A DNA stretch of 56,125 nt from Fragilaria crotonensis (Eukaryota; Bacillariophyta; Fragilariophyceae; Fragilariales; Fragilariaceae): assembly GCA_022925895.1 (NCBI GenBank), contig JAKSYS010000401.1, forward strand, positions 1 to 56,125, written 5' to 3'. The position numbers were made by a program, and so were the translations under genes. Each line of letters starts with the position of its first letter. The stretch's first letter is position 1. Under the pieces are notes generated by a model, which worked only from the letters and a program-made list of their open reading frames with translations, did not search any database and was not told the origin of the DNA. Below are positions 14,901-55,720 of this stretch, piece after piece.

Positions 14901-17234
14901 ATGTCATTCCGCGCATCTTCAACGCCGTCTGATGGCCGTCGTGGTGTGTACCAGGACGATCAGGGCTTCAATCAACTGAAGACCCCACCGTCGCGAGACG
15001 ATGTCAACGACTCTTGCGTTGAACAATTCAGATCTTACAGTCCTATCTCGCTCATCAGTGAAGACGATAGTACGAAACCCCCTCCTGTGCCGAAGAGGGA
15101 TAATTCCCCAGAAGAACTACGTCGAATGGTTTCATTCGGATCGCTCGAATTATCTCAACCTGACACCACCGTAACAGTTCACATTGATACGGATGACGAT
15201 TCATCTGCGCATCAAGAGAAGTCTGCGTGCTCCTCGGCAGAGACAGCGCATGCCTCAAACATGGAGCATTTTTCTTCCACAAGGACTTTTAAAGCATCAA
15301 ACGCCACCAAGAAATCTGGGACGCACGTTGTTGAAGACGTCGATGTTGGCATGTCCAGAAATGAACGTAAAGTGAACAGGTTGAAGAAACTGTTTCAAGT
15401 CCCAACAATTGCTGCAATAGCTGGTGAGCATGAACCTGATATTCAACATCAAACGAATGTTCATGGTGATGCAGTTGGCACCGTTTCTGAAACGGAGTAC
15501 AGATTGACACCCGGACTTGGCTATCGAGGTGCTGAAGATATCGATGTTGTCACCATTGACGCCAAATCGACGAAAAATCTACGTTTTCCGACTACTGTAG
15601 CAGCTGCCGGTGTGCAAGAACCCAATGTTCAACACCAGAAAAATGAATATGGCGATCTTCCTTGCTCCGTTCCTGAAATGGAGTACATTTTCAAACCCGA
15701 CCTTGAATGCCCGTCGCAAAGTCCACCACAAGTCACAGAGGCGACGATCCCAGCAATGGATCTAGACCTGCATGGCGAGAACCTCGCTGAATCGGGATTG
15801 CGAGTTGCGAACGTGGAAGAGTTATTTAAAGACGAGAGCGTTTGCGAAGAGCAGTTTCGCACTCCGGTTCACAAAAAATGGTGCTTCTTGGCCGTATTCG
15901 TGGTAATTCTATTGGGAATAGGCATACCGGTGTATTTGACGCTTGTCAAGGGTGAAAATAGTAGTCCCGGCCCTACTACTATCCCGACAAATGCAAGCTC
16001 CCCCACGTCAAGCCCATCAGGAACTCCCACTGTATCCCCAACTCGTGATGAAGATTTTGATAGCATTGAGGAAATTCTCACGAGATTCTTCGGTAATTCC
16101 TCAACCGATCAACAATCCCCTCAATCAAAAGCTCTAGCTTGGATGGTGAACAACGACACAAGCAACTTGACAGCCGATACCAGTCACGAGATGGAGATCA
16201 AAGACAGGTACATCTTGGTTGTTTTATACTTCGCCATGCGTGGTGATTATTGGTTCCATCATTCGGACTTCCTTTCTTCGAAACATCATTGCTTGTGGAA
16301 TATCAGCGCCCCAGCTGCTGGTTTCCTTGGAATCACTTGCGATGTTTTGAAGCAGGTAATCCGGTTGGATCTGATGAGGAACGGCCTGAACGGGATGATT
16401 CCTAGTGAAATCAGATTCTTGACAAAACTAGAGGGATTAAATCTCACAGGCAACAACATTTCAGGCAATCTCCCTTCGTCGCTTGATCAACTAACAAAGC
16501 TGCAAGGTGTTGATTGTAGTCACAATAATTTATTCGGGACGATACCTCCGGAGCTCTTCCAGATCTCAACACTCCAAGTTGTTAAGCTTGGTAACAATTC
16601 ACTAAACGGAACCCTACCTGATTTCGATGACGAGAAGGGAAATGTTTCGGATGTGACTAATTCGCTGGCGGGAACACTCTCGGAGGGACTCGGTAATCTG
16701 AGTTCACCCGGTCTCGTAGATCTTGGGAACAAGTCGCGTTCTGGGACGATTCCCAAGTCCATAGGCTCACACAAAGCGTTGGTGACCTTGATTCTTGACA
16801 ACAATAAGCTCAAGGGCAGTCTCCCTTCAACCCTAGGGAGCCTAAGCAAAATGGAAGTGTTCTCCGCCAACAATAATGGATTAAGTGGCACAATACCGAC
16901 AGAAATGGGACGCCTAACGAACTTGACGAGATTGGAATTGATGTCCAACGAATTATATGGTCAAATCCCGTCGGAGCTAGGCCTCCTCGGTGAGCTCAAG
17001 ATTCTGAATTTGGCTGATAATAAATTCAATGGAACAGTTCCAACTCAGCTTGGCGATTTGTCTCGATTGCAGACCGTCCATCTCGAAAATAATTCATTGG
17101 GTGGCGACATGGAGAGCTTTTGCAAGAATAAGGCTTCGTTTTTGGGGGTAGACTGTGATGGTGAAATTAAATGCACATGCTGCACTTTTTGCTGTAACTC
17201 TTCGGACGTGTGCACAGATAGGTCTAATGCATAG
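14901..17234 (+). CDS. LRR transmembrane receptor-like protein, 777 aa (LRR copy 1)
   Basis: A cytosolic N-terminal region of about 325 residues (Ser/Asp/Glu-rich, disordered) is followed by one membrane segment at about residues 328-348 (FLAVFVVILLGIGIPVYLTL). Next come a Ser/Pro/Thr linker, a Cys-paired cap (HHCLW...GITCD), about ten plant-type leucine-rich repeats from residue 484 (LxxLxLxxNxLxGxIP), and a Cys cluster CTCCTFCC near the end. The protein is probably type II, with LRRs outside the cell or in the secretory lumen. There is no kinase domain. Ligand and function are unknown; LRR ectodomains usually bind peptides or proteins. The ATG at 14901 matches the start of the tandem copy at 18369. 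The middle LRRs are slightly degenerate compared with copy 3 (FAN deleted before NSLAG). Confidence 0.9.
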   Translation: MSFRASSTPSDGRRGVYQDDQGFNQLKTPPSRDDVNDSCVEQFRSYSPISLISEDDSTKPPPVPKRDNSPEELRRMVSFGSLELSQPDTTVTVHIDTDDDSSAHQEKSACSSAETAHASNMEHFSSTRTFKASNATKKSGTHVVEDVDVGMSRNERKVNRLKKLFQVPTIAAIAGEHEPDIQHQTNVHGDAVGTVSETEYRLTPGLGYRGAEDIDVVTIDAKSTKNLRFPTTVAAAGVQEPNVQHQKNEYGDLPCSVPEMEYIFKPDLECPSQSPPQVTEATIPAMDLDLHGENLAESGLRVANVEELFKDESVCEEQFRTPVHKKWCFLAVFVVILLGIGIPVYLTLVKGENSSPGPTTIPTNASSPTSSPSGTPTVSPTRDEDFDSIEEILTRFFGNSSTDQQSPQSKALAWMVNNDTSNLTADTSHEMEIKDRYILVVLYFAMRGDYWFHHSDFLSSKHHCLWNISAPAAGFLGITCDVLKQVIRLDLMRNGLNGMIPSEIRFLTKLEGLNLTGNNISGNLPSSLDQLTKLQGVDCSHNNLFGTIPPELFQISTLQVVKLGNNSLNGTLPDFDDEKGNVSDVTNSLAGTLSEGLGNLSSPGLVDLGNKSRSGTIPKSIGSHKALVTLILDNNKLKGSLPSTLGSLSKMEVFSANNNGLSGTIPTEMGRLTNLTRLELMSNELYGQIPSELGLLGELKILNLADNKFNGTVPTQLGDLSRLQTVHLENNSLGGDMESFCKNKASFLGVDCDGEIKCTCCTFCCNSSDVCTDRSNA

Positions 17235-30170: not shown

Positions 30171-32150
30171 TTGTTTCGGATGGAGAATCGTGGCAGTGCC
30201 GATAACGTTGACGACGTTGCGAAGGATTCTTCACGTGCTGGAGGAATCCAGGAGAGTGACTTTGCTGAAGAATTCTCATCGGATTTGCCAAGCACGGCCA
30301 TGCTGTCGTCGGCACCTTCTGGTTCCTCTCCCTACGCTTCGTTATCGTCGCCATCCGCAGCAAAGGTTGATGATCGTGACGTTGCTCATGGTGCTGGTCG
30401 TGTCGGTGATACCAAGAAATTGGAACATGCACCACCGACTGACCCAAGAATGCAATTACCCGCCGCCGGGTTTGGAATGGTAGACTCGATGGGAAGACCT
30501 CCAGTTGTTTATGCAAGCAATTCCGACGTTGGTCCTGGAGCATTTCCAGTACGATCAGGTCGGAACACTGCAACACGTCGGACAGTCAGGTCTCCAATTC
30601 GTTCGTATGATTCCCCTAGAGAGTTTACGAATGAAGAATCCAAACAGGATGATGGAGTGCGGAACTCCGCAGTTGCTGGAATTGGTGTGTATGCTGTGGA
30701 AGCACAACGGGTACCAGACGGAAGCGAGGATGGAACGGTGTTGGTGGCCGAGGCCCAATACGTCAGAACGAAATGGTATCAACGTCGTTGGATTTTTGTG
30801 GGTCTTGCCTTGCTTGCGTGCGGTTTTGCCGCTGCGGTGGTAGTGATGGTTGTACTTTTAGTTCGACAACCATCTGCGGCTGCCAGTTCTTCATTGACGC
30901 CCCCTCCCACCGTCCAAACAACAGGCGCGCCCTCCATTCCGGAACTAACTGCTAGTCCAGTTCCCACTCCCACTGTATCCCCAACTCGTGATGAAGATAG
31001 CATTGAGGAAATTCTCTCGATTCGCTTCGGTAATTCCTCAACCGATCAACAATCCCCTCAATCAAAAGCTCGAGCTTGGATGAAGAACAACGACACATGG
31101 GTATTGAATGCCGACATCAGTGCCACGATGGAGATCGAAGAAAGGTACATCCTGGTTGTGTTGTATTTCGCCATGCAAGGTAGTGCCTGGTTCAATCAAT
31201 CGGACTTCCTTTCTTCGAAACATCATTGCTTGTGGAATACCAGCGCCCCAGCTGCTGGTTTCCTTGGAATCACTTGCGATGCTTTGAAGCAGGTAATCCG
31301 GTTGGATCTGATGAGGAACGGCCTGAACGGGACGATTCCTAGTGAAATCAGATTCTTGACAAAACTAGAGGGATTAAATCTCACAGGCAACAACATTTCA
31401 GGCAATCTCCCTTCGTCGCTTGATCAACTAACAAAGCTGCAAGGTGTTGATTGTAGTCACAATAATTTATTCGGGACGATACCTCCGGAGCTCTTCCAGA
31501 TCTCAACACTCCAAGTTGTTAAGCTTGGTAACAATTCACTAAACGGAACCCTACCTGATTTCGATGACAAGAAGGGAAATGTTTCGGATGTCTTCGCGAA
31601 TAATTCGCTGGCGGGAACACCCTCGGAGGGACTCGGTAATCGGAACAAGTCGCGTTCTGGGACGATTCCCAAGTCCATAGGCTCACACAAAGCGTTGGTG
31701 ACCTTGATTCTTGACAACAATGAGCTCAAGGGCAGTCTCCCTTCAAGCCTAGGGAGCCTAAGCAAAATGGAAGTGTTCTCCGCCAACAATAATGAATTAA
31801 GTGGCACAATACCGACAGAAATGGGACGCCTTACGAACTTGACGAGATTGGAATTGATGTCCAACGAATTATATGGTGAAATCCCGTCGGAGCTAGGCCT
31901 CCTCGGTGAGCTCAAGATTCTGAATTTGGCTGATAATAAATTCAATGGAACAGTTCCAACTCAGCTTGGCGATTTGTCTCGATTGCAGACCGTCCATCTC
32001 GAAAATAATTCATTGGGTGGCGACATGGAGAGCTTTTGCAAGAATAAGGCTTCGTTTTTGGGGGCAGACTGTGATGGTGAAATTACATGCACATGCTGCA
32101 CTTATTGCTGTAACGCTTCGGACGTGTGCACAAATCTGTCTCCGGCATAG
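30171..32150 (+). CDS. LRR transmembrane receptor-like protein, 659 aa (LRR copy 3)
   Basis: The protein is a type II-like single-pass form: cytosolic region of about 203 residues (Ser/Gly/Asp-rich), membrane segment at about 205-230 (WIFVGLALLACGFAAAVVVMVVLLV), Pro/Thr linker, Cys-paired cap, about ten LRRs and the Cys cluster CTCCTYCC. Translation may start at 30171 (MFRM) or 30180 (MENRG). From the PTVSPTRDED linker onward it is nearly identical to LRR copy 1, but its cytosolic and membrane parts are unrelated to copy 1. This suggests segment shuffling or gene conversion of the ectodomain. One LRR is shortened relative to copy 1 (LSSPGLVDLG missing). Function unknown. Confidence 0.9.
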   Translation: MFRMENRGSADNVDDVAKDSSRAGGIQESDFAEEFSSDLPSTAMLSSAPSGSSPYASLSSPSAAKVDDRDVAHGAGRVGDTKKLEHAPPTDPRMQLPAAGFGMVDSMGRPPVVYASNSDVGPGAFPVRSGRNTATRRTVRSPIRSYDSPREFTNEESKQDDGVRNSAVAGIGVYAVEAQRVPDGSEDGTVLVAEAQYVRTKWYQRRWIFVGLALLACGFAAAVVVMVVLLVRQPSAAASSSLTPPPTVQTTGAPSIPELTASPVPTPTVSPTRDEDSIEEILSIRFGNSSTDQQSPQSKARAWMKNNDTWVLNADISATMEIEERYILVVLYFAMQGSAWFNQSDFLSSKHHCLWNTSAPAAGFLGITCDALKQVIRLDLMRNGLNGTIPSEIRFLTKLEGLNLTGNNISGNLPSSLDQLTKLQGVDCSHNNLFGTIPPELFQISTLQVVKLGNNSLNGTLPDFDDKKGNVSDVFANNSLAGTPSEGLGNRNKSRSGTIPKSIGSHKALVTLILDNNELKGSLPSSLGSLSKMEVFSANNNELSGTIPTEMGRLTNLTRLELMSNELYGEIPSELGLLGELKILNLADNKFNGTVPTQLGDLSRLQTVHLENNSLGGDMESFCKNKASFLGADCDGEITCTCCTYCCNASDVCTNLSPA

Positions 32151-42669: not shown

Positions 42670-43790
42670 TTTTACAGACAAAGAACAGAAGGAGATGCTC
42701 CGTCGCAGCATTCTTGGATCTGAAGACCCTGATGACATTTCACTCCCAGAGCAAATGGTTCTCGGTGTCAACCAGTTTGCACATCTATATGATGATGTGC
42801 CATTGGAAAATAACGATGACAGAAATGCAACTTCAGCACTCGGGGGGGCAGGTACTAATGAGGATTTGATTCTCGGCAGGTCGTCACATCGCAATGAATA
42901 CGACAAGAGGCTCAAGGATTGTTTCTTTCCACAAAAAAGTTCGGGAGGTAAGCTTCACATTTATGCAAATAAGCCAGACGGAATCACCAAATCATTGTTG
43001 ATTGCCAAGAACATGTCAAATCCAGTTGACGTTTCTGTACAAACAATCATGCGAGCTGCAAAGGAGGTTCGAAATGGGAGGAAGGCACTTGCATGTGTCA
43101 AAGAAGCCGAAAGTGACTATAAAGATGGAACACTTCCATCTGGGCGGACCATTTCTGATTATCATCGGTATGTCCGGGAACGGATGTTTGTGAAACTGAA
43201 GGGCACCATTGGTGCTGATTGTGATGATGCTGACGCCGATGATGATGTTATCGGATCAGAGGATGTTGAGAAACAACAAGACGATAATGGCAATCGATTA
43301 ATCAATCCTGAAGAGATGCCAGAAGATTATTATTTCTCCGGCATGATTGCTTTCTTCTTGTGGGGTCATATCATCGAAGACCCCAATCAAGAGTGCTACC
43401 GGTCAAAACAATTCCAAATTGGCGATAGTGCACCAGAGGAAAAAGGACTTCAGGCAGGAGGCAGATAAAGAAAGAGACCGCTAGGGCCGAATCAAAGCAG
43501 CGAGACATGGGAGCAGCAACCCCGGTTCGCCATTTAAGCGAGGTGCTACACTGTCGCAACAAATTGAAATTGCCAAGTTGCAGGCCGCAAGGGCTATCGA
43601 AGAGAGGCGTACCTCGACCATGATTATACGATTGCCTTAATGAGCATTCAGAAGGATATTGACCATCATATGGCTCTAGCCAAGCTCTGGGATGCGAAGG
43701 ATCGGAACGATCCTATCTTTTCCAAGATCAACGACCTCTTTGATTCGAAACAAAAGTTGAGTGTGACATTTGCTGAAAAGCAGATCATCC
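42670..43790 (+). CDS. Hypothetical protein, partial and frameshifted
   Basis: The main frame (42695-43468, 257 codons) is hydrophilic, with an acidic stretch (DCDDADADDDVIGSEDVEK). It continues in other frames as FRQEADKERETARAESKQRDM and later IQKDIDHHMALAKLW, a Lys/Glu-rich helical tail that reaches the LRR junction at about 43790. At least two frame changes occur (near 43445 and 43600). No domain is recognised. The start is unclear; reading may enter from further upstream. It could be a host gene whose 3' end was replaced by LRR sequence, or a mobile-element protein. Confidence 0.5.
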
Positions 43791-44928
43791 TCAACCGATC
43801 AACAATCCCCTCAATCAAAAGCCCTAGCTTGGATGTTGAACAACGACACATGGGTATTGAAAGCCGACATCAGTGCCACGATGGAGATCAAAGAAAGGTA
43901 CATCCTGGTTGTGTTATATTTCGCCTTGCATGGTAGTGCCTGGTTCAATCAATCGGAATTCCTTTCTTCGGGACATCATTGCTCGTGGCATGTGAAAGCT
44001 GTAGCACCATCTGATGGTTTCCTCGGAAGCACTTGCAATCCTTCCAACCAAACAATGCGTTTGGATCTGATGGGGAACGGCCTAAACGGGACTATTCCTC
44101 ATGAAATCCAATATTTAACAGGACTTGTGGGATTGAATTTCTCAGACAACATTTCAGGCAACATCCCTTCGTCGCTTGGCCAACTCAATAAACTTCAAGA
44201 TATTGATTGTAGTGACAATGTGCTATCTGGGACGGTACCTGCGGAGCTCTTCCAGATCGCAATACTTCACTTTGTCGATTTTGGTTCGAATTCACTGAAC
44301 GGAACCCTGCCTGAAATCGACAATAATGTGCAAGAAATTCGTTCGTTTGCCTTCGCAAATAATACGCTGTCAGGAACGCTCCCGAAGGGACTCCTTGATC
44401 TGAGTTCACTCAGCCTCCTTGATCTTGGGAACAATTTGCTTACCGGGACGATCCCCAAGTCCACGGGCTCACACAAAGCGTTGGTGACCTTGATTCTTGG
44501 CAACAATGAACTAAAGGGCGGCCTCCCTTCATCCCTAGGGAGCCTAAGCAAAATGGAAGTGTTGTCCGCCAACAATAATGGATTGAATGGCACAATACCG
44601 ACAGAAATGGGAAACCTAAAGAACTTGGTGATATTGGAGTTGATGTCCAACGATTTCTCTGGTGAAATCCCGTCGGAGCTAGGCCTCCTCGGTGACCTCA
44701 AGATTCTGAATTTGGCTGATAATGAGTTCGAAGGGAAAGTTCCAACTCAGCTTGGCGATTTGTCTCGATTGCAGACTGTCCATCTCCAAAAGAATTTATT
44801 GGGTCGCGACATGGGAAGCTTTTGCAAGGAGTATAAGGGTTCGTTTTGGGGCAGACTGTGGTGGTGAAATCGCATGCACATGCTGCACTTATTGCTGTAA
44901 CTCTGCGGGCGCGTGCAAAGAGGTATAA
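43790..44928 (+). pseudogene. LRR ectodomain without membrane anchor (LRR copy 4)
   Basis: Homology to LRR copies 1 and 3 starts at SSTDQQSPQSKALAW and runs through the cap and ten repeats to the Cys cluster. The cytosolic region, membrane segment and Pro/Thr linker are missing; unrelated hypothetical coding sequence lies directly upstream. Most repeats are better preserved than in copy 1. A one-base deficit in the G-run near 44847 shifts the end out of frame; the alternative frame restores ACTCCTYCCNSAGACKEV and the TAA at 44926-44928. The open frame has an ATG at 43770, but there is no signal peptide. It is convergent with the hydroxylase gene, 32 bases apart. Confidence 0.8.
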
Positions 44929-44960: not shown

Positions 44961-46279
44961 TTAGTCATCTTTGGAAGCCTTTTTCTTCTTCTCTGGCTTT
45001 TTGCCCTGTATTTTGTCGGCGATGTATGCATACTGCACAATAAGCCCGATTACGAGTACTGGCACCCCCACGCAAGCCTTATCAAAGTATGATGAACCTT
45101 GCTCCATTCCAAAACGTTCGACCAACAAATTATGCAACTGCGCCAGAAGGAAAGACGAGCCGATGAAGTCAAAGAGCGGAACAACTATCCTTCGTGCGTA
45201 CGACACGGGTTGGACCAGTACGAACTTCTGCGCAATATAAACGGTGCCTTTGGACGGCATCATGGCGTGGAGGGTATCGTAATCAAGGTCCATTCCATTG
45301 TCAATGGTGTTGTGGTGCACAATCGCCATGCCCTGTTTGGGGCGAATTTTGATGGGTTCCTTGGCGTTCGGATAAACAACTGAAGGCTCCTCGCCATCGC
45401 TCAGGAATATCGTAATTGTGGCCATAGCAACGGTATTTGGAAAAACATCATAGTGAGGCTTACGGTGTGATCCAGCCTCATACTTGTCAACGATGAAGTC
45501 GCTGAAATGAATCGCCGGGAATCCGGTTACTTGTTCGATTCTTTCTTCAATTGCTTTGCTGGCTGGAAGCTGCCAAAGTCCCTGCCAAAGCGTAGCACGT
45601 TGTACGTTGTGTAGCTTTTCTGTATTGTAAGAGAGATCTAGCAAAGAATCACCAGCAATTGGTTTCATCTTCTTGTCAGCTTTCTTGATCAACATTGCAC
45701 ACTCCTCAGCAATCAACAAATTATGAATCAAATACAAAACAGGATTTCTGGGCATGACATCTTCAAAAAATGGACGATCTCCACCAGCGTAAAGGCGAAT
45801 ACGATCTGGCATTCCATTGTTAACAACGTCCTCCTGTCTTGTCTCAGCAGTGACTGTCGCGGTTGTCAAGACATTGGCCGAGTTGTATGAGATCATCACA
45901 ACAGGGATATCGATCCCATCAGCAGCGTCTCCTTCAGGTGACGGGAGGCGATAAATCTCGTCTGGATGCTTCTTGTCAATATTGACCACAATCAATGCTG
46001 CAGCTCCACTTTTCTTGGCAAGCTGCGCCATTTGCCATCCCTCCAGGTCTCCTTGATTCGTCATGACAACCATATTTCCATGCACTTCATCCGCATTGTC
46101 CAATAACGCAACAGGTTCCATCGTCTCCCTATTAATTCCTGACACTGGGTCAGCTAAAACTGGTCGAGTTTCTACCTCCAACAAGGCTGCTTGTGCGGTT
46201 TGAGGCCCAAAATGTGCCACTGAACAGTCTAATGCACTAATATCCAACGAGAAAACGTTGTGAGGAGACTGGTCACACA
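44961..46279 (-). CDS. PA-domain prolyl-4-hydroxylase-like 2-oxoglutarate/Fe(II) oxygenase (main exon)
   Basis: The first third has a protease-associated (PA) fold signature (GWQMAQLAKKSGAAALIVVN, DIPVVMISY). The oxygenase domain follows: CAMLIKKADKK, FSDFIVDKYEAGSHRKPHYD with the H-x-D iron ligands, and a distal His in TLHAMMPSKGTVYIAQKF with a nearby Lys fitting the 2-oxoglutarate site. A hydrophobic segment (VPVLVIGLIVQYAYI) and a Lys-rich tail end the protein, suggesting C-terminal membrane anchoring with a cytosolic KKKK tail. The enzyme class hydroxylates prolyl residues using O2, Fe(II) and 2-oxoglutarate in the secretory pathway. The exon at 46379-46572 supplies a signal peptide. It is the full-length source of the two tail fragments near LRR copies 1 and 3. 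Confidence 0.87.
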
Positions 46280-46378
46280 CTGCCAGTCACATTTATGCAT
46301 CAAGCTATGCACTACCTTCACAGTTTCAAGAACACGCACAGAGGAATAGCAAGCGAAATAGCAAAACCATCACCTTAC

Positions 46379-46572: not shown

Positions 46573-46799
46573 GGTCGTTTGATGCCACCAACGAAAGTAG
46601 ACTACAAGTACTGGTCGTACTTATTAGAAGAGAAGTGTTTAAGATTTGCTTTCTTGCGGCTAACAGGCTAAGATAGCACGAGCGCCACCTGGCATCCTGT
46701 CACCTGATGGATGTATAGACGGAGCTAATTTTTTACAACAGTCTCAATCTCAAGTCCGAAGTCCCAACCCGCGGTACAGTACAAGTACGAGTACCTGCT

Positions 46800-46870
46800 A
46801 ATACAGTATATAATCTCTACTCGGAGTACTTGTAGTTCGACGTCAGACGTCTGTCGTCAGACGTCACCAA
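46800..46870 (+). promoter_or_regulatory. Candidate promoter with repeated ACGTCA motifs
   Basis: A TATATAAT-like word at about 46806-46813 lies about 105 bases upstream of the ATG at 46917. ACGTCA occurs at 46840-46845 and 46861-46866, with further GACGTC/GTCAGACGT words between. In Phaeodactylum, TGACGT/ACGTCA words act as CO2- and cAMP-responsive elements of carbonic anhydrase genes. Use here is inference from the motif alone. Confidence 0.4.
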
Positions 46871-46916
46871 ACGAAAGCCACAGCAACTGTTTCACAAGAA
46901 TACGAAAAGAGAGACG

Positions 46917-47783
46917 ATGATGCGCTATAGTCTCGCTCGCCTCAACGGTGTTTCGCACGCCCGTCATCGCTGTCTATCGACGCTCGTGATCCCTGTCGAG
47001 CTTATCTCGGACACCTTATGACCAAACGGGTTCATTGGGAAGAGGCACCTGAACAAGGCCATGACCCAGGTCTTGGCAAATCCACTTCCCAACGCGCCCC
47101 GTCCAGTCGTTTTTTCGGTGATTCGAGTCCCCTTCTTTCTCGAGCCGCAGTACGACGAGAAAAAGCCATTTATTGAAACAAATCGTGAACGTCTTATTCA
47201 AAAGTGGGGCGGGAAGCAGGGATGGGAACGCCAGAAGAATGCTCACGATTTGAAAGGCCGCGGTCTCGAAGCTGGCATCCCGCACTTTAATTTGGATCGA
47301 TTGACCAGCAACACCATGGCGTCGCATCGATTAATTCAACACATTGGCAAGACTCACGGCCTTGCTGCGAGTGAGGCGATTTACGACTTGTTAAACCAAT
47401 ACTATTTTGTCGATGGATACTCTCTCAATGATCGGCCGCGACTTGCCAAGACTGTTGCCGATCAACTCGTCAAGATACTGCCGAATAGTGCACCAAAGGA
47501 GGAGGAAATTCTGGAGTTTTTGAATGGACAACAGGGTCGAAGGGAAATTGAACAGGCCCTCGCCGCCTTGCGGAAGCTTGGAGTTCACGGGATCCCCAAG
47601 TTCATCATTGAAGGGACAACGGTAGTCGATGGTGCTGCTCGATCTGACGTCTTTGTAAACATCTTCCGAGAAATCGAACGTCGAGGCGAAGTTCAATCTG
47701 GGCCCGTTTTTGCGGATATATTAGGCTTGCGGCAAGAAGTTATCGAGCAAGGTAGTCATCGCCCAGAAGATATGGCGGCCTAG
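46917..47783 (+). CDS. DsbA/FrnE-like thioredoxin-fold oxidoreductase, probable selenoprotein
   Basis: From ATG 46917 to TAG 47781 one frame of 288 codons is open except for TGA at codon 35 (47019-47021). The TGA stands where the family has the first Cys of CPWC: IPVELISDTL, then TGA, then PNGFIGKRHL. The frame on both sides is the FrnE/2-hydroxychromene-carboxylate isomerase-like DsbA fold: first strand before the TGA, helical insert, and HGIPKFII with the cis-Pro loop near residue 225. Residues 1-25 are basic and Ser/Arg-rich, fitting a mitochondrial targeting peptide. The second Cys is replaced by Gly, giving UPNG. If selenocysteine is not inserted, the ATG at 47061 would give a protein without its active site. 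A SECIS-like hairpin lies downstream. A nonsense mutation is the alternative. Confidence 0.75.
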
Positions 47784-47859
47784 TCTGTCGTTGTGAGGTT
47801 GTGAGGCACACACCCGCGTTTCCTCATTAGACCATTTAGCAAAGCGTGCACGCATGCCG

Positions 47860-47905
47860 CCAGAATGATAATCAAGAGCGGACGTTGTTCTTGATTTGAT
47901 ATTGG
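47860..47905 (+). promoter_or_regulatory. SECIS-like hairpin in the 3' region
   Basis: The structure lies 77 bases after the stop of the gene above. Helix I is CCAG (47860-47863) with TTGG (47902-47905). A small internal loop is followed by a TGAT/TGAT quartet (47866-47869 with 47897-47900) that allows U.U, G.A, A.G and U.U pairs, the hallmark of SECIS cores, preceded by A. Helix II is eight perfect pairs (AATCAAGA 47870-47877 with 47889-47896). The apical loop of 11 bases lacks the usual unpaired AA or CC, so it is either atypical or not functional. Confidence 0.5.
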
Positions 47906-47920
47906 ACTGTCATGCAACCA

Positions 47921-48074
47921 CTGTTTGCAGCTGCGTCAAGAGAGGATAGCGTATAGAAGATACCCATTCACCTTGAGTAGTTTCATTCGTATTCACGCTG
48001 TTTGCAGCTGCGTCAAGAGAGGATAGCATATAGAAGATACCCATTCACCTTGAGTAGTTTCATTCGTATTCACG
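47921..48074. repeat. Tandem duplication, two copies of 77 bp
   Basis: 47921-47997 and 47998-48074 are identical but for one base (GATAGCG versus GATAGCA). The repeat lies between the 3' ends of two convergent genes, just beyond the SECIS-like hairpin. A recent slippage or unequal exchange is likely. Confidence 0.95.
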
Positions 48075-48341
48075 CTAAGCCAAGTGGATTGTTGAATATA
48101 TTCCACGAAATTGATAGTGCAGAGTGCACTCGAAAAGCGTAATCGCAGTTCTGGTAATTGTACTTGGAGTTTTGAGTACAAGTAGATCTCGGCCCCATTT
48201 ATCATGTTGCAAATAGCAAGTTCCAGGTACAGTATTACCATAGCCATTTGGAGCAAATAGGCCTGCGGGAGAAGCCAATCATCAATCACAAAATGCTTAC
48301 TAAGTTAGTCGTGCAGTTAACTATCGAAAGCCACCTTATCT

Positions 48342-49112
48342 TCAAGCTGAAATGGGTTCCGCGGGCTGAGGAGTCGCCATCATGACCTCCATTGCCTTGG
48401 CATCCGCTTGCCATCCAGTGTGAAGCTGGATGGCCATATCATCTGGAAACACGTCTTCTTTCCCAGTTAAAAGGGCATCCACAATAGCGGTCGCAACGGC
48501 GGATGGTGGAGTCTTGTCAAATGGAAGACCGTCTGCCATGTCTGTGTCTATCGGACCTGGATAGACACCAATCACCAGTGTTTCATGTCCAAAGTCGCGA
48601 CGTTGTGCTTGCGTCAATGAATGAATGGCGGCCTTTGAGGCAGAGTAGGTACCAGCAATGTTGAAATTGATAAAGCTGGCAATCGAGGCGACGTTGACAA
48701 CGGCAGTATTGGTCTTTCCCTTGAGGGTCTTTGCAAAGCTTTGGTTGATTCTCAGAGGTCCAAAATAGTTTACTTCGATCTCCTTGACTGCCTCTTCCAG
48801 AGCGTCGTTGTCAAGTGCCGAGGCAGCATATCCCGCATATCCAGCATTGTTGATGAGAAGATTAACATCTGGGTAGAGGTCAGCGAGGCTCGCAATTTGG
48901 TCCTTGTCTGCAACATCGAGGGAAACAGCAACAACTCGTCCGCCGGCTGTCTGAACGAGTTCATCCAGCTGACTTGCGTCGCGAGCCGTGGCGTACACCT
49001 TCTTGGCGCCGTTGGCAAGCAGGGCATCCACAATGGCGCGGCCGATGCCATTCTTCTTGTTCGTTCCAGTCACGAATGCGACGGAGTCGTTGATTTGGAA
49101 TGTAGAAGTCAT
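48342..49112 (-). CDS. Short-chain dehydrogenase/reductase (SDR), 256 aa
   Basis: This is a classical SDR. The nucleotide-binding motif is TGTNKKNGIGRA near residue 15, followed by LDVAD near 65, NNAGYAG near 90, a Ser in NVASIASF near 142 and YSASK (catalytic Tyr and Lys) near 155-159, then PGPIDTDM. It would reduce or oxidise a carbonyl or alcohol with NAD(P)(H); the substrate cannot be read from sequence. Length is normal for the family and the frame is intact. The ATG at 49112 precedes the first strand by eight residues, the usual distance. No targeting signal is evident, so it is probably cytosolic. It is convergent with the DsbA-like gene. Confidence 0.93.
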   Translation of the reverse strand: MTSTFQINDSVAFVTGTNKKNGIGRAIVDALLANGAKKVYATARDASQLDELVQTAGGRVVAVSLDVADKDQIASLADLYPDVNLLINNAGYAGYAASALDNDALEEAVKEIEVNYFGPLRINQSFAKTLKGKTNTAVVNVASIASFINFNIAGTYSASKAAIHSLTQAQRRDFGHETLVIGVYPGPIDTDMADGLPFDKTPPSAVATAIVDALLTGKEDVFPDDMAIQLHTGWQADAKAMEVMMATPQPAEPISA

Positions 49113-51643: not shown

Positions 51644-54600
51644 CCATCGGTGGCGGCCTATCAATCCACCATCCGGAGGGCAAGGTCGCTACCATCAAAT
51701 CATCGTATCGTCTCGTCCCTCCAGCATTCAGAACCACATTTTGCCCGTTGCGAACTCGATTCGCATGCTGACACTTGCGCTCTTGGGAGCAATTTCACTC
51801 TTTTATCGTACACAGGCCGCGAATGCGATGTATCCCCTTACAACGCATCGCACGAACCAGAACGAAATGTCCCCATTGTCAGCGCAGGAACCTCGTACAC
51901 TTGCCAAACCTCGGGCGTTACCTACATCCTTGTCATCCACGAAGCACTATGGTTTGGTGACAAACTTCAACACTCCTTACTGAATCCCAACCAATTGCGA
52001 TTTGCCGGCATGGAAGTTCACGACAACCCGTTTGCCCGCGAACATCGTATTTCCATTGACCATCCCGACCTGCACATACCTCTTGACATTACAGGCACCA
52101 CTATCTTCCTTGAATCGTCCACACCCACTCAACACGAGCTGGATACTTGTCCACATATACATCTAACACTCGACTCCGATTGGAATCCACACACCGTGCA
52201 ACTGGCGTCAGCGCAGCGTGCGGAGGCGGAAATGAGCGGCGCGAGTGATATTGAACCTGGACTTGCACAAATATCAGCGGTGTTTTGTTGCAACCAAATG
52301 GCGGAAGCGATGAACGAACAACGACACATAAAGGCCACCACCGTCGATGTGCCAGGAACGAAAACTTTTATATCTAACAAGCGTCACACACAGATAACAA
52401 GCGAACAATTAAGCGAGCGATGGAATATCGGACTATCGCAAGCGAAGAACACGTTAAAAGTAACAACACAGCGCGGCGTTCGATCAGCGATCATGCCACT
52501 GAGCAGACGATATCGAACGGACAGAATGTATAATCAGCGAAAATTGCGAAATCAAAAGTTCTACACTGACACCTTGTTTGGAAAATGCAAATCGATCACC
52601 AACAACACATGTGCACAAATATTTGCGAACGAAGCATATTTCGTGAAAGCGTATCCGATGGAAAAGAAATCGATGGCTGGGCTTGCTCTGCGACAATTTA
52701 TAAGAGACTATGGCGTGCCGGAACAACTGACATCTGACGGCGCAGCAGAGCAAACTGGTCCCAAAACAGAGTTCATGAAGAACGTAAGGAAGTATCAAAT
52801 CGACCACCATCTAAGCGAACCACACAGGCCACAGCAAAACAGGGCAGAGTCCGTAATTCGGGAAGTGAAGAAGCGTTGGTTCAGGCAGATGACTAAAAGA
52901 AAAGTCCCGAAAAGGCTCTGGGATTATGGTATTGTATGGGTGTGCGAAATCATGTCGCTGACATCGAACTCAACCTTTGCGTTAGACGGGAGAACACCAA
53001 CCGAACAAATCACGGGCGAGACTCCAGACATATCGGAATACCTGGACTTTACTTTCTATGATTGGGTATGGTATAAAGACAACGCTGGGGTTGGGGACAA
53101 CTCCTGTGGGCGATGGCTTGGCGTTTCGCACAGAGTGGGAAATCTAATGTCATACTGGATACTAACCGAGAACGGGAGAGTCATATCGAGAACAACTGTA
53201 CAGCGAGTCACCAACTTGGAGCAAGGCACAGCAGAAGTCAAAGAGCGAATGTCGAGTTTTAATGAGCGCGTGTCGACTGTCCTCAACGATGCCAACCATA
53301 TCATACAAGAAAATGATGGCGATAGGCAGCTTCAGGATTGGGACAACTACACACTTGAAGACGACCCGGACTTTGCGGAAGAGTTCAACAACATGGTCTC
53401 GGATGATAAAATCCCTGAAGCCGATGACACGTTCACCCCAGATCTATTTGACGACACATACTTAAACAAGGAAGTGGCGATCGCGAGAGGTGCCGGAACA
53501 GAAGAGGATGTACAATATGGTAAAGTGACCAAGCGACTGCGCGATGCGGAAGGCCGACCGATTGGAACGGCACATGAGAATCCTTTGCTAGATACGCGAG
53601 AATACGATGTGGAATTCATGGACGGACACAATGAATCACTGTCTGCCAATTTAATTGCTCAACACTTGTACTCACAAATTGACGAAGAAGGAAACAGACA
53701 TGTTATGCTCGACGACATTACAGATCACAGGCGAAAAGAAAGCGCAGTTGACAAGAGCGATGAGTTCACGACAATGTCGAATGGCGTAAAGCGTCGGAGA
53801 GAAACAACTCAGGGTTGGCAGTTACTGTGCCAATGGAGAGACGGAAGCACGAATTGGGTTGCATTAAAGGACATGAAACAATCGTACCCAGTCCAAGTTG
53901 CAGAATATGCAATAGCCAATCGAATCGACGATGAACCAGCGTTTGCGTGGTGGGTCAAACATGTGATCAGAAAGCGCGACCGAATCCTATCTAAGATCAA
54001 ATCCAAATACTGGCAAAGGACACACAAATACGGAATCAGGATACCCAAAACCGTGGAGCAAGCGTTAGCGTTTGATAAACAGAACGGCAACACTCTATGG
54101 TGGGATGCGATATGTAAAGAAATGAAGAACGTCAGGCCAGCTTTTGAGAAATGGGAGCAACCCGAGCGAGAAATGCTACCCGGATACCAGAAGATTAAGT
54201 GCCATTTCATTTTCGACGTTAAGATGGGAGAGAACTTCCGTAGAAAAGCGAGGTTGGTGGCGAACGGTAACCAGACAGAGACCCCAACATCATTGACGTA
54301 CTCGTCCGTGGTATCACGAGACTCCGTAAGAATTGCTTTGCTTGTTGCTTCACTTAATAACTTACAATTGTTGGCTTGCGATATCCAAAATGCATACCTC
54401 ACAGCAGACTGCAGAGAGAAAATTTACATCACAGCTGGTCCAGAATTTGGATCGGAAGCAGGCTCCACAATGATCATTCGGAAAGCGTTATACGGTCTGA
54501 AATCAAGTGGAGCAGCGTTCAGGGCTCACTTAGCGGAGACCCTCTACGAACTGAACTACCAACCAACGAAAGGAGATCCTGACGTATGGATAAGGCCGGC

Positions 54601-55720
54601 GACTAAAGCGGATGGCTTCGAATACTATGAAATGGTATTGGTATATGTTGACGACATCCTTTGCATATCGGACGATCCGAAGGCCACTATGAAAGGAATC
54701 CAAGCGACGTTCAAACTCAAGGACGACCGGATCGAAAAGCCGGAGATGTACTTGGGAGCGACGTTGACCGAAAAGAACCTGAACGGAACCATGTGCTGGA
54801 CAATGTCATCCGAGCAATATGTGAAGGCTGCAATCGCGAACGTTGAAGCGAAATTGGACGAAAGTGGGCAAAGATTACCATCAAGGTGCTCGTCGCCATT
54901 ACAAGCAGGCTATCGACCGGAGCTAGATGTTTCAGCGGAGCTCAAAATCGATGGAATAAGATATTACCAAGAATTGATTGGCGTTTTGAGATGGGCGATT
55001 GAGCTGGGAAGGATTGATATCACAATGGAAGTGTCTATGTTGTCTACTCACCTTGCTATGCCCCGCGAAGGACACTTACAGCAGGCGTATCATGTGTTCG
55101 GATATTTGAAAGCGAAACCAAAGAAGACACTTGCTTTCGACCCAACTCACCCAGACATTGATGAAGCGAGATTCGAAAAGTGCGACTGGCATGATTTTTA
55201 TAGAGGGGCGGCAGAATCGATTCCAGGGGACATGCCGGACCCCAGAGGTAATGTTGTTTCCACTCATTGTTTTGTTGACGCTGACCACGCAGGTAACAGA
55301 GTGACCAGAAGGTCGCAGACAGGGATTTTATTGTTTGTGAACCGAGCCCCAATCATATGGTATAGTAAGCGACAAAACACCGTCGAAACGTCGACGTTCG
55401 GGAGCGAATTTGTGGCGATGAGAATTGCAGTCGAGTTGGTTGAAGCTTTACGCTACAAGTTGCGGATGTTCGGGATACCGATCGAAGGATCCACGAACGT
55501 ATTCTGCGACAACGAAGCGGTCACCAAGAACGCGATTAACCCGGAATCTACTCTCAAGAAGAAGCATAACGCAATTGCATACCACCGAACGCGTGAAGCT
55601 GTGGCTGCGGGAACTATCCGAGTTACCAAAGAAGATGGAAAGACGAACTTGGCGGACGTATTGACGAAACCGTTGTCGCAGATGACGAAAGATTTTTTAT
55701 GCGATCGGTTCATGTATTGA
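51644..55720 (+). CDS. Copia Pol, complete, about 1,358 codons
   Basis: Numbered from GTG 51650. Protease: CELDSHADTCALG near residue 35-45, with DSH in place of DSG/DTG as in diatom CoDi elements. Integrase: Asp near 305 (FYTDTLFGK), SDGAAEQ near 362 and Glu in QNRAESVI near 398, D-D-35-E spacing. A chromodomain-like segment at about 722-760 (LLCQWRDGSTNWVALKDM). RT: KCHFIFDVKMG near 850, CDIQNAYL near 912, ALYGLKSSG and VYVDDILCIS near 998. RNase H: CFVDADHAGN near 1208, ETSTFGSEFVAM and NLADVLTKPL. There is no ATG near the start; the frame continues directly from gag across one TGA, so expression as a Gag-Pol readthrough product is likely. No breaks are seen. Confidence 0.93.
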   Translation, partial: PSVAAYQSTIRRARSLPSNHRIVSSLQHSEPHFARCELDSHADTCALGSNFTLLSYTGRECDVSPYNASHEPERNVPIVSAGTSYTCQTSGVTYILVIHEALWFGDKLQHSLLNPNQLRFAGMEVHDNPFAREHRISIDHPDLHIPLDITGTTIFLESSTPTQHELDTCPHIHLTLDSDWNPHTVQLASAQRAEAEMSGASDIEPGLAQISAVFCCNQMAEAMNEQRHIKATTVDVPGTKTFISNKRHTQITSEQLSERWNIGLSQAKNTLKVTTQRGVRSAIMPLSRRYRTDRMYNQRKLRNQKFYTDTLFGKCKSITNNTCAQIFANEAYFVKAYPMEKKSMAGLALRQFIRDYGVPEQLTSDGAAEQTGPKTEFMKNVRKYQIDHHLSEPHRPQQNRAESVIREVKKRWFRQMTKRKVPKRLWDYGIVWVCEIMSLTSNSTFALDGRTPTEQITGETPDISEYLDFTFYDWVWYKDNAGVGDNSCGRWLGVSHRVGNLMSYWILTENGRVISRTTVQRVTNLEQGTAEVKERMSSFNERVSTVLNDANHIIQENDGDRQLQDWDNYTLEDDPDFAEEFNNMVSDDKIPEADDTFTPDLFDDTYLNKEVAIARGAGTEEDVQYGKVTKRLRDAEGRPIGTAHENPLLDTREYDVEFMDGHNESLSANLIAQHLYSQIDEEGNRHVMLDDITDHRRKESAVDKSDEFTTMSNGVKRRRETTQGWQLLCQWRDGSTNWVALKDMKQSYPVQVAEYAIANRIDDEPAFAWWVKHVIRKRDRILSKIKSKYWQRTHKYGIRIPKTVEQALAFDKQNGNTLWWDAICKEMKNVRPAFEKWEQPEREMLPGYQKIKCHFIFDVKMGENFRRKARLVANGNQTETPTSLTYSSVVSRDSVRIALLVASLNNLQLLACDIQNAYLTADCREKIYITAGPEFGSEAGSTMIIRKALYGLKSSGAAFRAHLAETLYELNYQPTKGDPDVWIRPATKADGFEYYEMVLVYVDDILCISDDPKATMKGIQATFKLKDDRIEKPEMYLGATLTEKNLNGTMCWTMSSEQYVKAAIANVEAKLDESGQRLPSRCSSPLQAGYRPELDVSAELKIDGIRYYQELIGVLRWAIELGRIDITMEVSMLSTHLAMPREGHLQQAYHVFGYLKAKPKKTLAFDPTHPDIDEARFEKCDWHDFYRGAAESIPGDMPDPRGNVVSTHCFVDADHAGNRVTRRSQTGILLFVNRAPIIWYSKRQNTVETSTFGSEFVAMRIAVELVEALRYKLRMFGIPIEGSTNVFCDNEAVTKNAINPESTLKKKHNAIAYHRTREAVAAGTIRVTKEDGKTNLADVLTKPLSQMTKDFLCDRFMY

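Follow-up and report, generated by a model that had tools for sequence, protein, structure and literature searches.

A probable selenoprotein of the DsbA/FrnE type in the diatom Fragilaria crotonensis that lacks the usual partner cysteine

The gene and its surroundings

The window, by which we mean the whole stretch of 56,125 nucleotides of Fragilaria crotonensis DNA that was analysed, carries on its forward strand a DsbA/FrnE-like coding frame (46917..47783) that runs from an ATG at 46917 to a TAG stop at 47781-47783 and yields 288 residues when one TGA is read through as U. This single in-frame TGA (47019..47021, forward strand) is codon 35, and lies at the position of the first catalytic Cys in a U-P-N-G motif, where we propose that selenocysteine (Sec) is inserted. 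It is preceded by an Arg-rich N-terminal leader containing RCLST (approximately residues 1-28; 46917..47000, forward strand), which in its composition resembles a mitochondrial presequence. Near the other end of the frame stands the motif G-I-P-K-F (47589..47603, forward strand), which includes a proline, Pro227, that is found in 6 of 6 alignment rows and presumably occupies the place of the cis-Pro of DsbA-type proteins. The window protein contains no Cys after its leader. Read with TGA as a stop, the same DNA offers a shortened ORF of 240 aa from a Met at 47061 (47061..47783, forward strand), and two relatives, P0001 and P0002, begin at the matching Met. Downstream of the stop codon lies a SECIS-like hairpin (47865..47900, forward strand), just beyond which a 77-bp unit occurs in tandem duplicate with 98% matches (47921-48076). 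The 288-residue protein has one match in the genome (62.1 Mb, 881 contigs).

Two reverse-strand genes flank this frame: a divergent gene for a PA-domain protein with a sub-cut-off match to 2OG-Fe(II) oxygenases (44961-46280), and a convergent gene for a short-chain dehydrogenase (SDR; 48342-49112). The latter terminates at TGA, which rules out a reassignment of TGA in the nuclear code. Elsewhere on the forward strand, a 1356-aa ORF with the reverse transcriptase domain RVT_2 (51650-55720) is presumably of Copia type, and by eye other long ORFs of the window resemble retroelements as well. Three forward-strand ORFs (14901-17234, 30171-32150 and 43770-44867, the third shorter) are alike by eye and probably represent a local gene family; the one at 14901-17234 has leucine-rich repeats in Pfam.

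Family placement and the active site

The read-through protein matches the Pfam DSBA family (PF01323) over residues 27-248 with 34.3 bits (cut-off 25.6), while the part after the TGA alone scores lower, at 28.6 bits; neither version has a match in NCBIfam. A PDB protein named FrnE likewise aligns across the TGA (residues 25-250, approximately 30 bits). Designed PPR proteins ranked above FrnE in the same search, and were set aside as chance matches arising from their repeats, since their single alignments reach only 6-8 bits. When the window protein is aligned with three relatives from bacteria (the first 3 of 123 matching plasmid records), codon 35 falls opposite the first Cys of CPWC and Gly38 opposite the second, such that DTL-U-PNGFIGK in the window protein corresponds to D-x-x-C-PWCYIGK. 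The original prediction, which was made from the sequence alone, had described family-like sequence on both sides of a single TGA, the exact placement of that TGA at the first Cys of CxxC, and a Gly in place of the partner Cys; the Pfam and FrnE alignments both cross codon 35, the position of the TGA is as described, and relatives that span the site have the Gly too.

A CxxC or UxxC motif with both redox residues is therefore absent: the window protein reads UPNG, Gly is present in 7 of 7 site-spanning relatives among those listed, and six further relatives (those with TQ[RW] starts, below) are compatible with Gly at the second position by back-translation. Judged by its sequence, the protein is a member of the DSBA family, since it exceeds the curated cut-off across the domain, but not as a dithiol enzyme. 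On the strength of the Pfam and FrnE sequence matches, it would be expected to adopt a thioredoxin fold with a helical insert.

Related proteins at the TGA codon

We compared 135 relatives, comprising the best 120 of 479 matches and additions from two further searches, and assigned their start classes by regular expression. The site is spanned by 7 of the 135 relatives listed, with Pro-Asn-Gly following it in all seven. One of these, P0010 (SDTLCPNGYIGKK), has Cys and reads CPNG, while the other six (P0007, P0009, P0044, P0121, P0125 and P0128) have Trp, a letter that is ambiguous here between TGA and TGG. A gene caller using code 4 would write TGA as W, and the six sequences with Trp stem from ena, jgi, lgn and ncbi sources. 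A sense codon other than Cys or Sec at this site in orthologues would have spoken against a selenoprotein, and none emerged beyond this ambiguous Trp among the seven listed; Sec at codon 35, as originally predicted, is supported as the best reading.

Most of the relatives listed start downstream of the site: the first residue lies after IGKK in 99 of 135 (P0001 and P0002 included) and at IGKK in 4, while in 25 an unrelated leader runs up to IGKK, in many cases probably because an intron beside the site has been translated through. A TGA that blocks any upstream start would leave relatives beginning after the site, although an intron or a contig end would act alike. More specific are six relatives that start with MTQR, MTQW or VTQR (P0018, P0025, P0029, P0043, P0071 and P0129), of which P0025 belongs to the class of 99 and the other five to the class of 25. 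The underlying (A/G)TG ACC CAA (C/T)GG, shifted by one frame, is TGA CCC AA(C/T) GG, the U-P-N-G site, and the window DNA reads MTKR in the overlapping frame. Given that a start of M-T or V-T always holds a TGA one base on, the weight of this observation lies in how often those four residues recur, and TQ[RW] is common to 6 of the 16 relatives listed that start with [MV]T. A start in the overlapping frame, on the same TGA, best explains these six sequences, in which the TGA is deduced from protein letters and Pro and Asn are compatible but not fixed.

Two of the six, P0025 (Cylindrotheca) and P0071 (Entomoneis), have MMETSP transcript names, so that, if the overlapping-frame start is correct, the TGA would be retained in mRNA and would not be spliced out, the other outcome that could have undone the original prediction. 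Both switch frame a few codons further along, apparently through frameshift correction by the gene caller.

The remaining frame is 58-92% identical to 36 aligned relatives, and the relatives that could be named are from Cylindrotheca, Nitzschia, Entomoneis, Mayamaea and Thalassiosira, all of which we take to be diatoms. After the R-V-P motif, 93 of the 135 relatives listed have no Cys, 39 have one and 3 have two, and in a 37-row alignment every Cys column is occupied in at most 2 rows. Leaders like that of the window protein are present in four relatives (P0009, P0121, P0125 and P0128). Searches of viral contigs and of GTDB genome contigs confirmed no DNA of a relative.

Selenocysteine decoding in the same genome

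A search of the genome recovered five genes in which TGA occupies the Sec position, and these served as controls: a glutathione peroxidase (GPx; NVASQUGLT), a SelT (YCVGUGMKR) and three MsrA (GUFW). SelD is present as well (265 bits; cut-off 125); this match (L019, G000:C753:64624-65583) lies within an open frame of 855 aa, and is consequently probably part of a fusion protein. Neither SepSecS nor, by Rfam or two DNA patterns, tRNA-Sec was found in the 62-Mb draft assembly. The Rfam tRNA-Sec model gave four sub-cut-off matches, all on contig C881, and the two patterns gave 0 and 19 matches, among which ARAGORN (applied to 11 of the 19 loci) and Rfam (applied to 7) recovered no tRNA-Sec. Given a draft assembly and searches that cannot span introns, we read the absence of both components as missing data, yet the gap is real. 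A tRNA-Sec has been reported for the diatom T. pseudonana together with 16 selenoproteins, among which the excerpted text of that report does not name DsbA or FrnE (PMC2375036).

The 14 MsrA rows in the genome include three with TGA (L024 on C786, L025 on C164 and L028 on C871), one with TAA and ten with no stop. Two SelT genes lie approximately 20 kb apart (L016, G000:C173:54882-55295; L017, G000:C173:74351-74758) and share 81% DNA identity over 752 alignment columns; one reads CVGU (codon TGA), the other SEEC (codon TGC), and the Cys-type paralogue keeps a degenerate SECIS-like remnant, CAATGAC. The pair looks like a recent exchange of Sec and Cys accompanied by loss of the first Cys. A further GPx row, with two TGA codons (L012 on C282), was excluded as a control, since Cys occupies its site and both TGAs fall where the frame has already been left.

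A SECIS-like element downstream of the gene

The hairpin scan and folding identify a SECIS-like core and hairpin at 47865..47900 (forward strand), with the form (GA)AUGAU...UGAU, an 11-bp upper stem and a 5-nt loop, beginning 82 nt past the stop codon; with its lower helix, the entire fold extends over 47852..47915 (forward strand; folding of 47848-47925). The upper stem reaches -10.7 kcal/mol and the fold of 47848-47925 reaches -23.1 kcal/mol, a value equalled in 4 of 200 shuffles. Published SECIS search thresholds, as excerpted from PMC2375036, are -3.7 kcal/mol for the upper stem and -12.6 kcal/mol for the whole fold; both are surpassed, and the NTGA..GA core with its helix is present. The U.U/G.A/A.G/U.U quartet anticipated by the original prediction is thus found, as UGAU/UGAU, and so is the anticipated lack of the apical AA: the hairpin has no AA or CC at 10-13 nt, where the published search rule places an unpaired AA or CC after the core (PMC2375036, in the part consulted). 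Inspected by eye, the control genes vary in this respect, with AA at 10 in GPx and MsrA L024, AA at 8 in MsrA L025, and neither AA nor CC within 10-13 nt in SelT and MsrA L028.

This hairpin is the sole ATGA candidate of the gene in the scan. Among 1104 overlapping 200-nt stretches from the rest of the window (both strands), 10 hold an ATGA..GA hairpin of equal score, and one of these combines GAATGA with an equally stable upper stem; of 1000 dinucleotide shuffles, 2 score as high. All five control genes have GAATGAC at 31-63 nt past the stop, and the present gene has GAATGAT at 80 nt. Applied to the five controls, the scan ranked the GAATGAC hairpin first in three and second in GPx, and missed it in MsrA L028. 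Both strands of the rest of the window (111,130 bases) contain two instances of GAATGA[CT] combined with a hairpin at least as stable as -3.5 kcal/mol, a figure to be read knowing that the pattern was set after the controls and this gene were seen, and that [CT] was widened for this gene. Rfam gave no SECIS match at 46700-48700 with all families, and none for SECIS_1 in the genome; since SECIS_1 misses 5 of 5 control loci too, its failure here is uninformative.

Alternative explanations

We consider it likely, with a probability of roughly 0.88, that this gene encodes a diatom Sec-containing DsbA/FrnE-like protein whose TGA would be decoded by means of the hairpin at 47865-47900, and which would act through a single selenol and an external thiol. 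An unlikely variant, though one that deserves consideration, accepts UGA as Sec but assigns the SECIS function to another structure. The missing apical AA is consistent with this variant, as is an overlapping TTGA hairpin at approximately 47892-47942, which is the runner-up with 16-nt arms (-18.0 versus -21.4), while with 14-nt arms it moves ahead (-18.0 versus -16.7); hairpins also form at three further start sites. The proposed hairpin, by comparison, is alone in its ATGA core, lies near the position seen in the five controls and has GAATGA in common with them, and the SelT gene of the same genome also does without AA or CC at 10-13 nt. It is even less probable that the relatives have true Trp (TGG) and that the window bears a TGG-to-TGA nonsense mutation, leaving a pseudogene or only the N-terminally shortened protein of 240 aa. 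Trp is indeed the letter in six of the seven site-spanning relatives listed, and a standard ORF from Met 47061 exists; but those records come from four sources, with Trp being what code 4 callers give for TGA, one relative has Cys, the six [MV]TQ[RW] starts fit TGA-Pro-Asn-Gly and 99 of the 135 relatives listed begin after the site. Moreover, the remaining frame is intact, conserved and present as a single gene copy, and the 240-aa form would be left without an active site.

Very little favours an intron that contains the TGA and is spliced out. The unrelated leaders of 25 of the 135 relatives listed do suggest that many of these have an intron next to the site, but the continuous frame of the window matches SDTL-x-PNG[YF]IGKK on both sides of the codon, so that splicing would delete the motif, and P0025 and P0071, the relatives that carry transcript names, seem from their starts to retain the TGA. 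Furthermore, P0128 reads SDTLWPNG before its insert, placing its intron after the site, which also counts against this explanation. A sequencing error that turned TGC or TGT into TGA is hardly credible: although one relative has Cys, a TGA is deduced in six others and a SECIS-like hairpin is present.

Comparison with known proteins and a proposed mechanism

The FrnE protein recovered from PDB (5cnw/5cp1), which we take to be DR_0659, shares D-x-x-[C/U]-P-x-x-[YF]IGK with the window protein, but differs in having Cys at both positions and no Sec, and many FrnE proteins carry a C-terminal CXXXXC besides. The motif of Deinococcus FrnE (D. radiodurans DR_0659) is given as CP(W/F)C (PMC8945050, in excerpt). 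DsbA selenoproteins have been described, as U(or C)XXC, in Ciona, Branchiostoma (amphioxus), Micromonas and marine bacteria (PMC2874816, in excerpt); these are likewise DsbA-like and carry Sec where the upstream active-site Cys would stand, and those of Ciona and Branchiostoma likewise have a SECIS in the 3'UTR, whereas the window protein departs from their UXXC in that the second Cys is Gly. A DSBA selenoprotein family has also been reported in algae (PMC7539508), and Sec-FrnE in Mamiellophyceae and M. viride (PMC6627142); compared by description, these belong to the same broad Sec-containing family, and the excerpts of both sources do not state the motif. A literature search combining DsbA, selenocysteine and diatom returned only PMC7539508, the supplements or database of which may already hold a diatom entry. 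The claim of the original prediction that this is a new selenoprotein must consequently be narrowed: Sec-containing DsbA/FrnE proteins are already in print (PMC7539508, PMC6627142 and PMC2874816), and it is the UPNG form, with loss of the partner Cys, that is not described in the parts consulted of these papers or of PMC8945050.

A potential mechanism can be outlined on the basis of these comparisons. The TGA at 47019 would be translated as Sec by the eukaryotic SECIS-dependent machinery, with the 47865-47900 hairpin in the 3'UTR directing insertion. Sec would retain the nucleophilic position; Gly occupies the resolving one, and Cys is absent beyond the leader. As the chain has no conserved resolving Cys, we infer a single-selenol cycle, in which the mixed intermediate would be resolved by an external thiol, for example glutathione, and the protein is most likely a single-selenol oxidoreductase that needs such a thiol. 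Cited work indicates that the upstream Cys of DsbA can catalyse exchange without the downstream Cys (PMC2874816, in excerpt). The Arg/Ser-rich leaders of the window protein and of four relatives suggest a location in the mitochondrial matrix.

Implications for diatom selenoproteins

Selenoproteins of the DsbA/FrnE type are already known, and in the diatom version the usual partner Cys has been lost. On balance, we favour the broader proposition that pennate and centric diatoms possess a FrnE-like mono-selenol enzyme that has lost its resolving Cys, has no conserved Cys in its body, works with Sec and glutathione or another thiol, and is probably mitochondrial; it would constitute a branch within the DsbA clan that the literature excerpts considered here do not describe, and would have been hidden because gene callers cut the protein after the UGA. 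With this locus, the diatom selenoproteome gains a well-supported member, and the finding suggests that many of the 'DsbA family' entries for it in databases, at approximately 240 aa, are truncated immediately downstream of the catalytic residue. Should the single-selenol design be true, these proteins would provide a natural test of how Sec acts in a DsbA-type enzyme that has no resolving Cys, for which P0010, with CPNG, offers a natural Cys counterpart for comparison.
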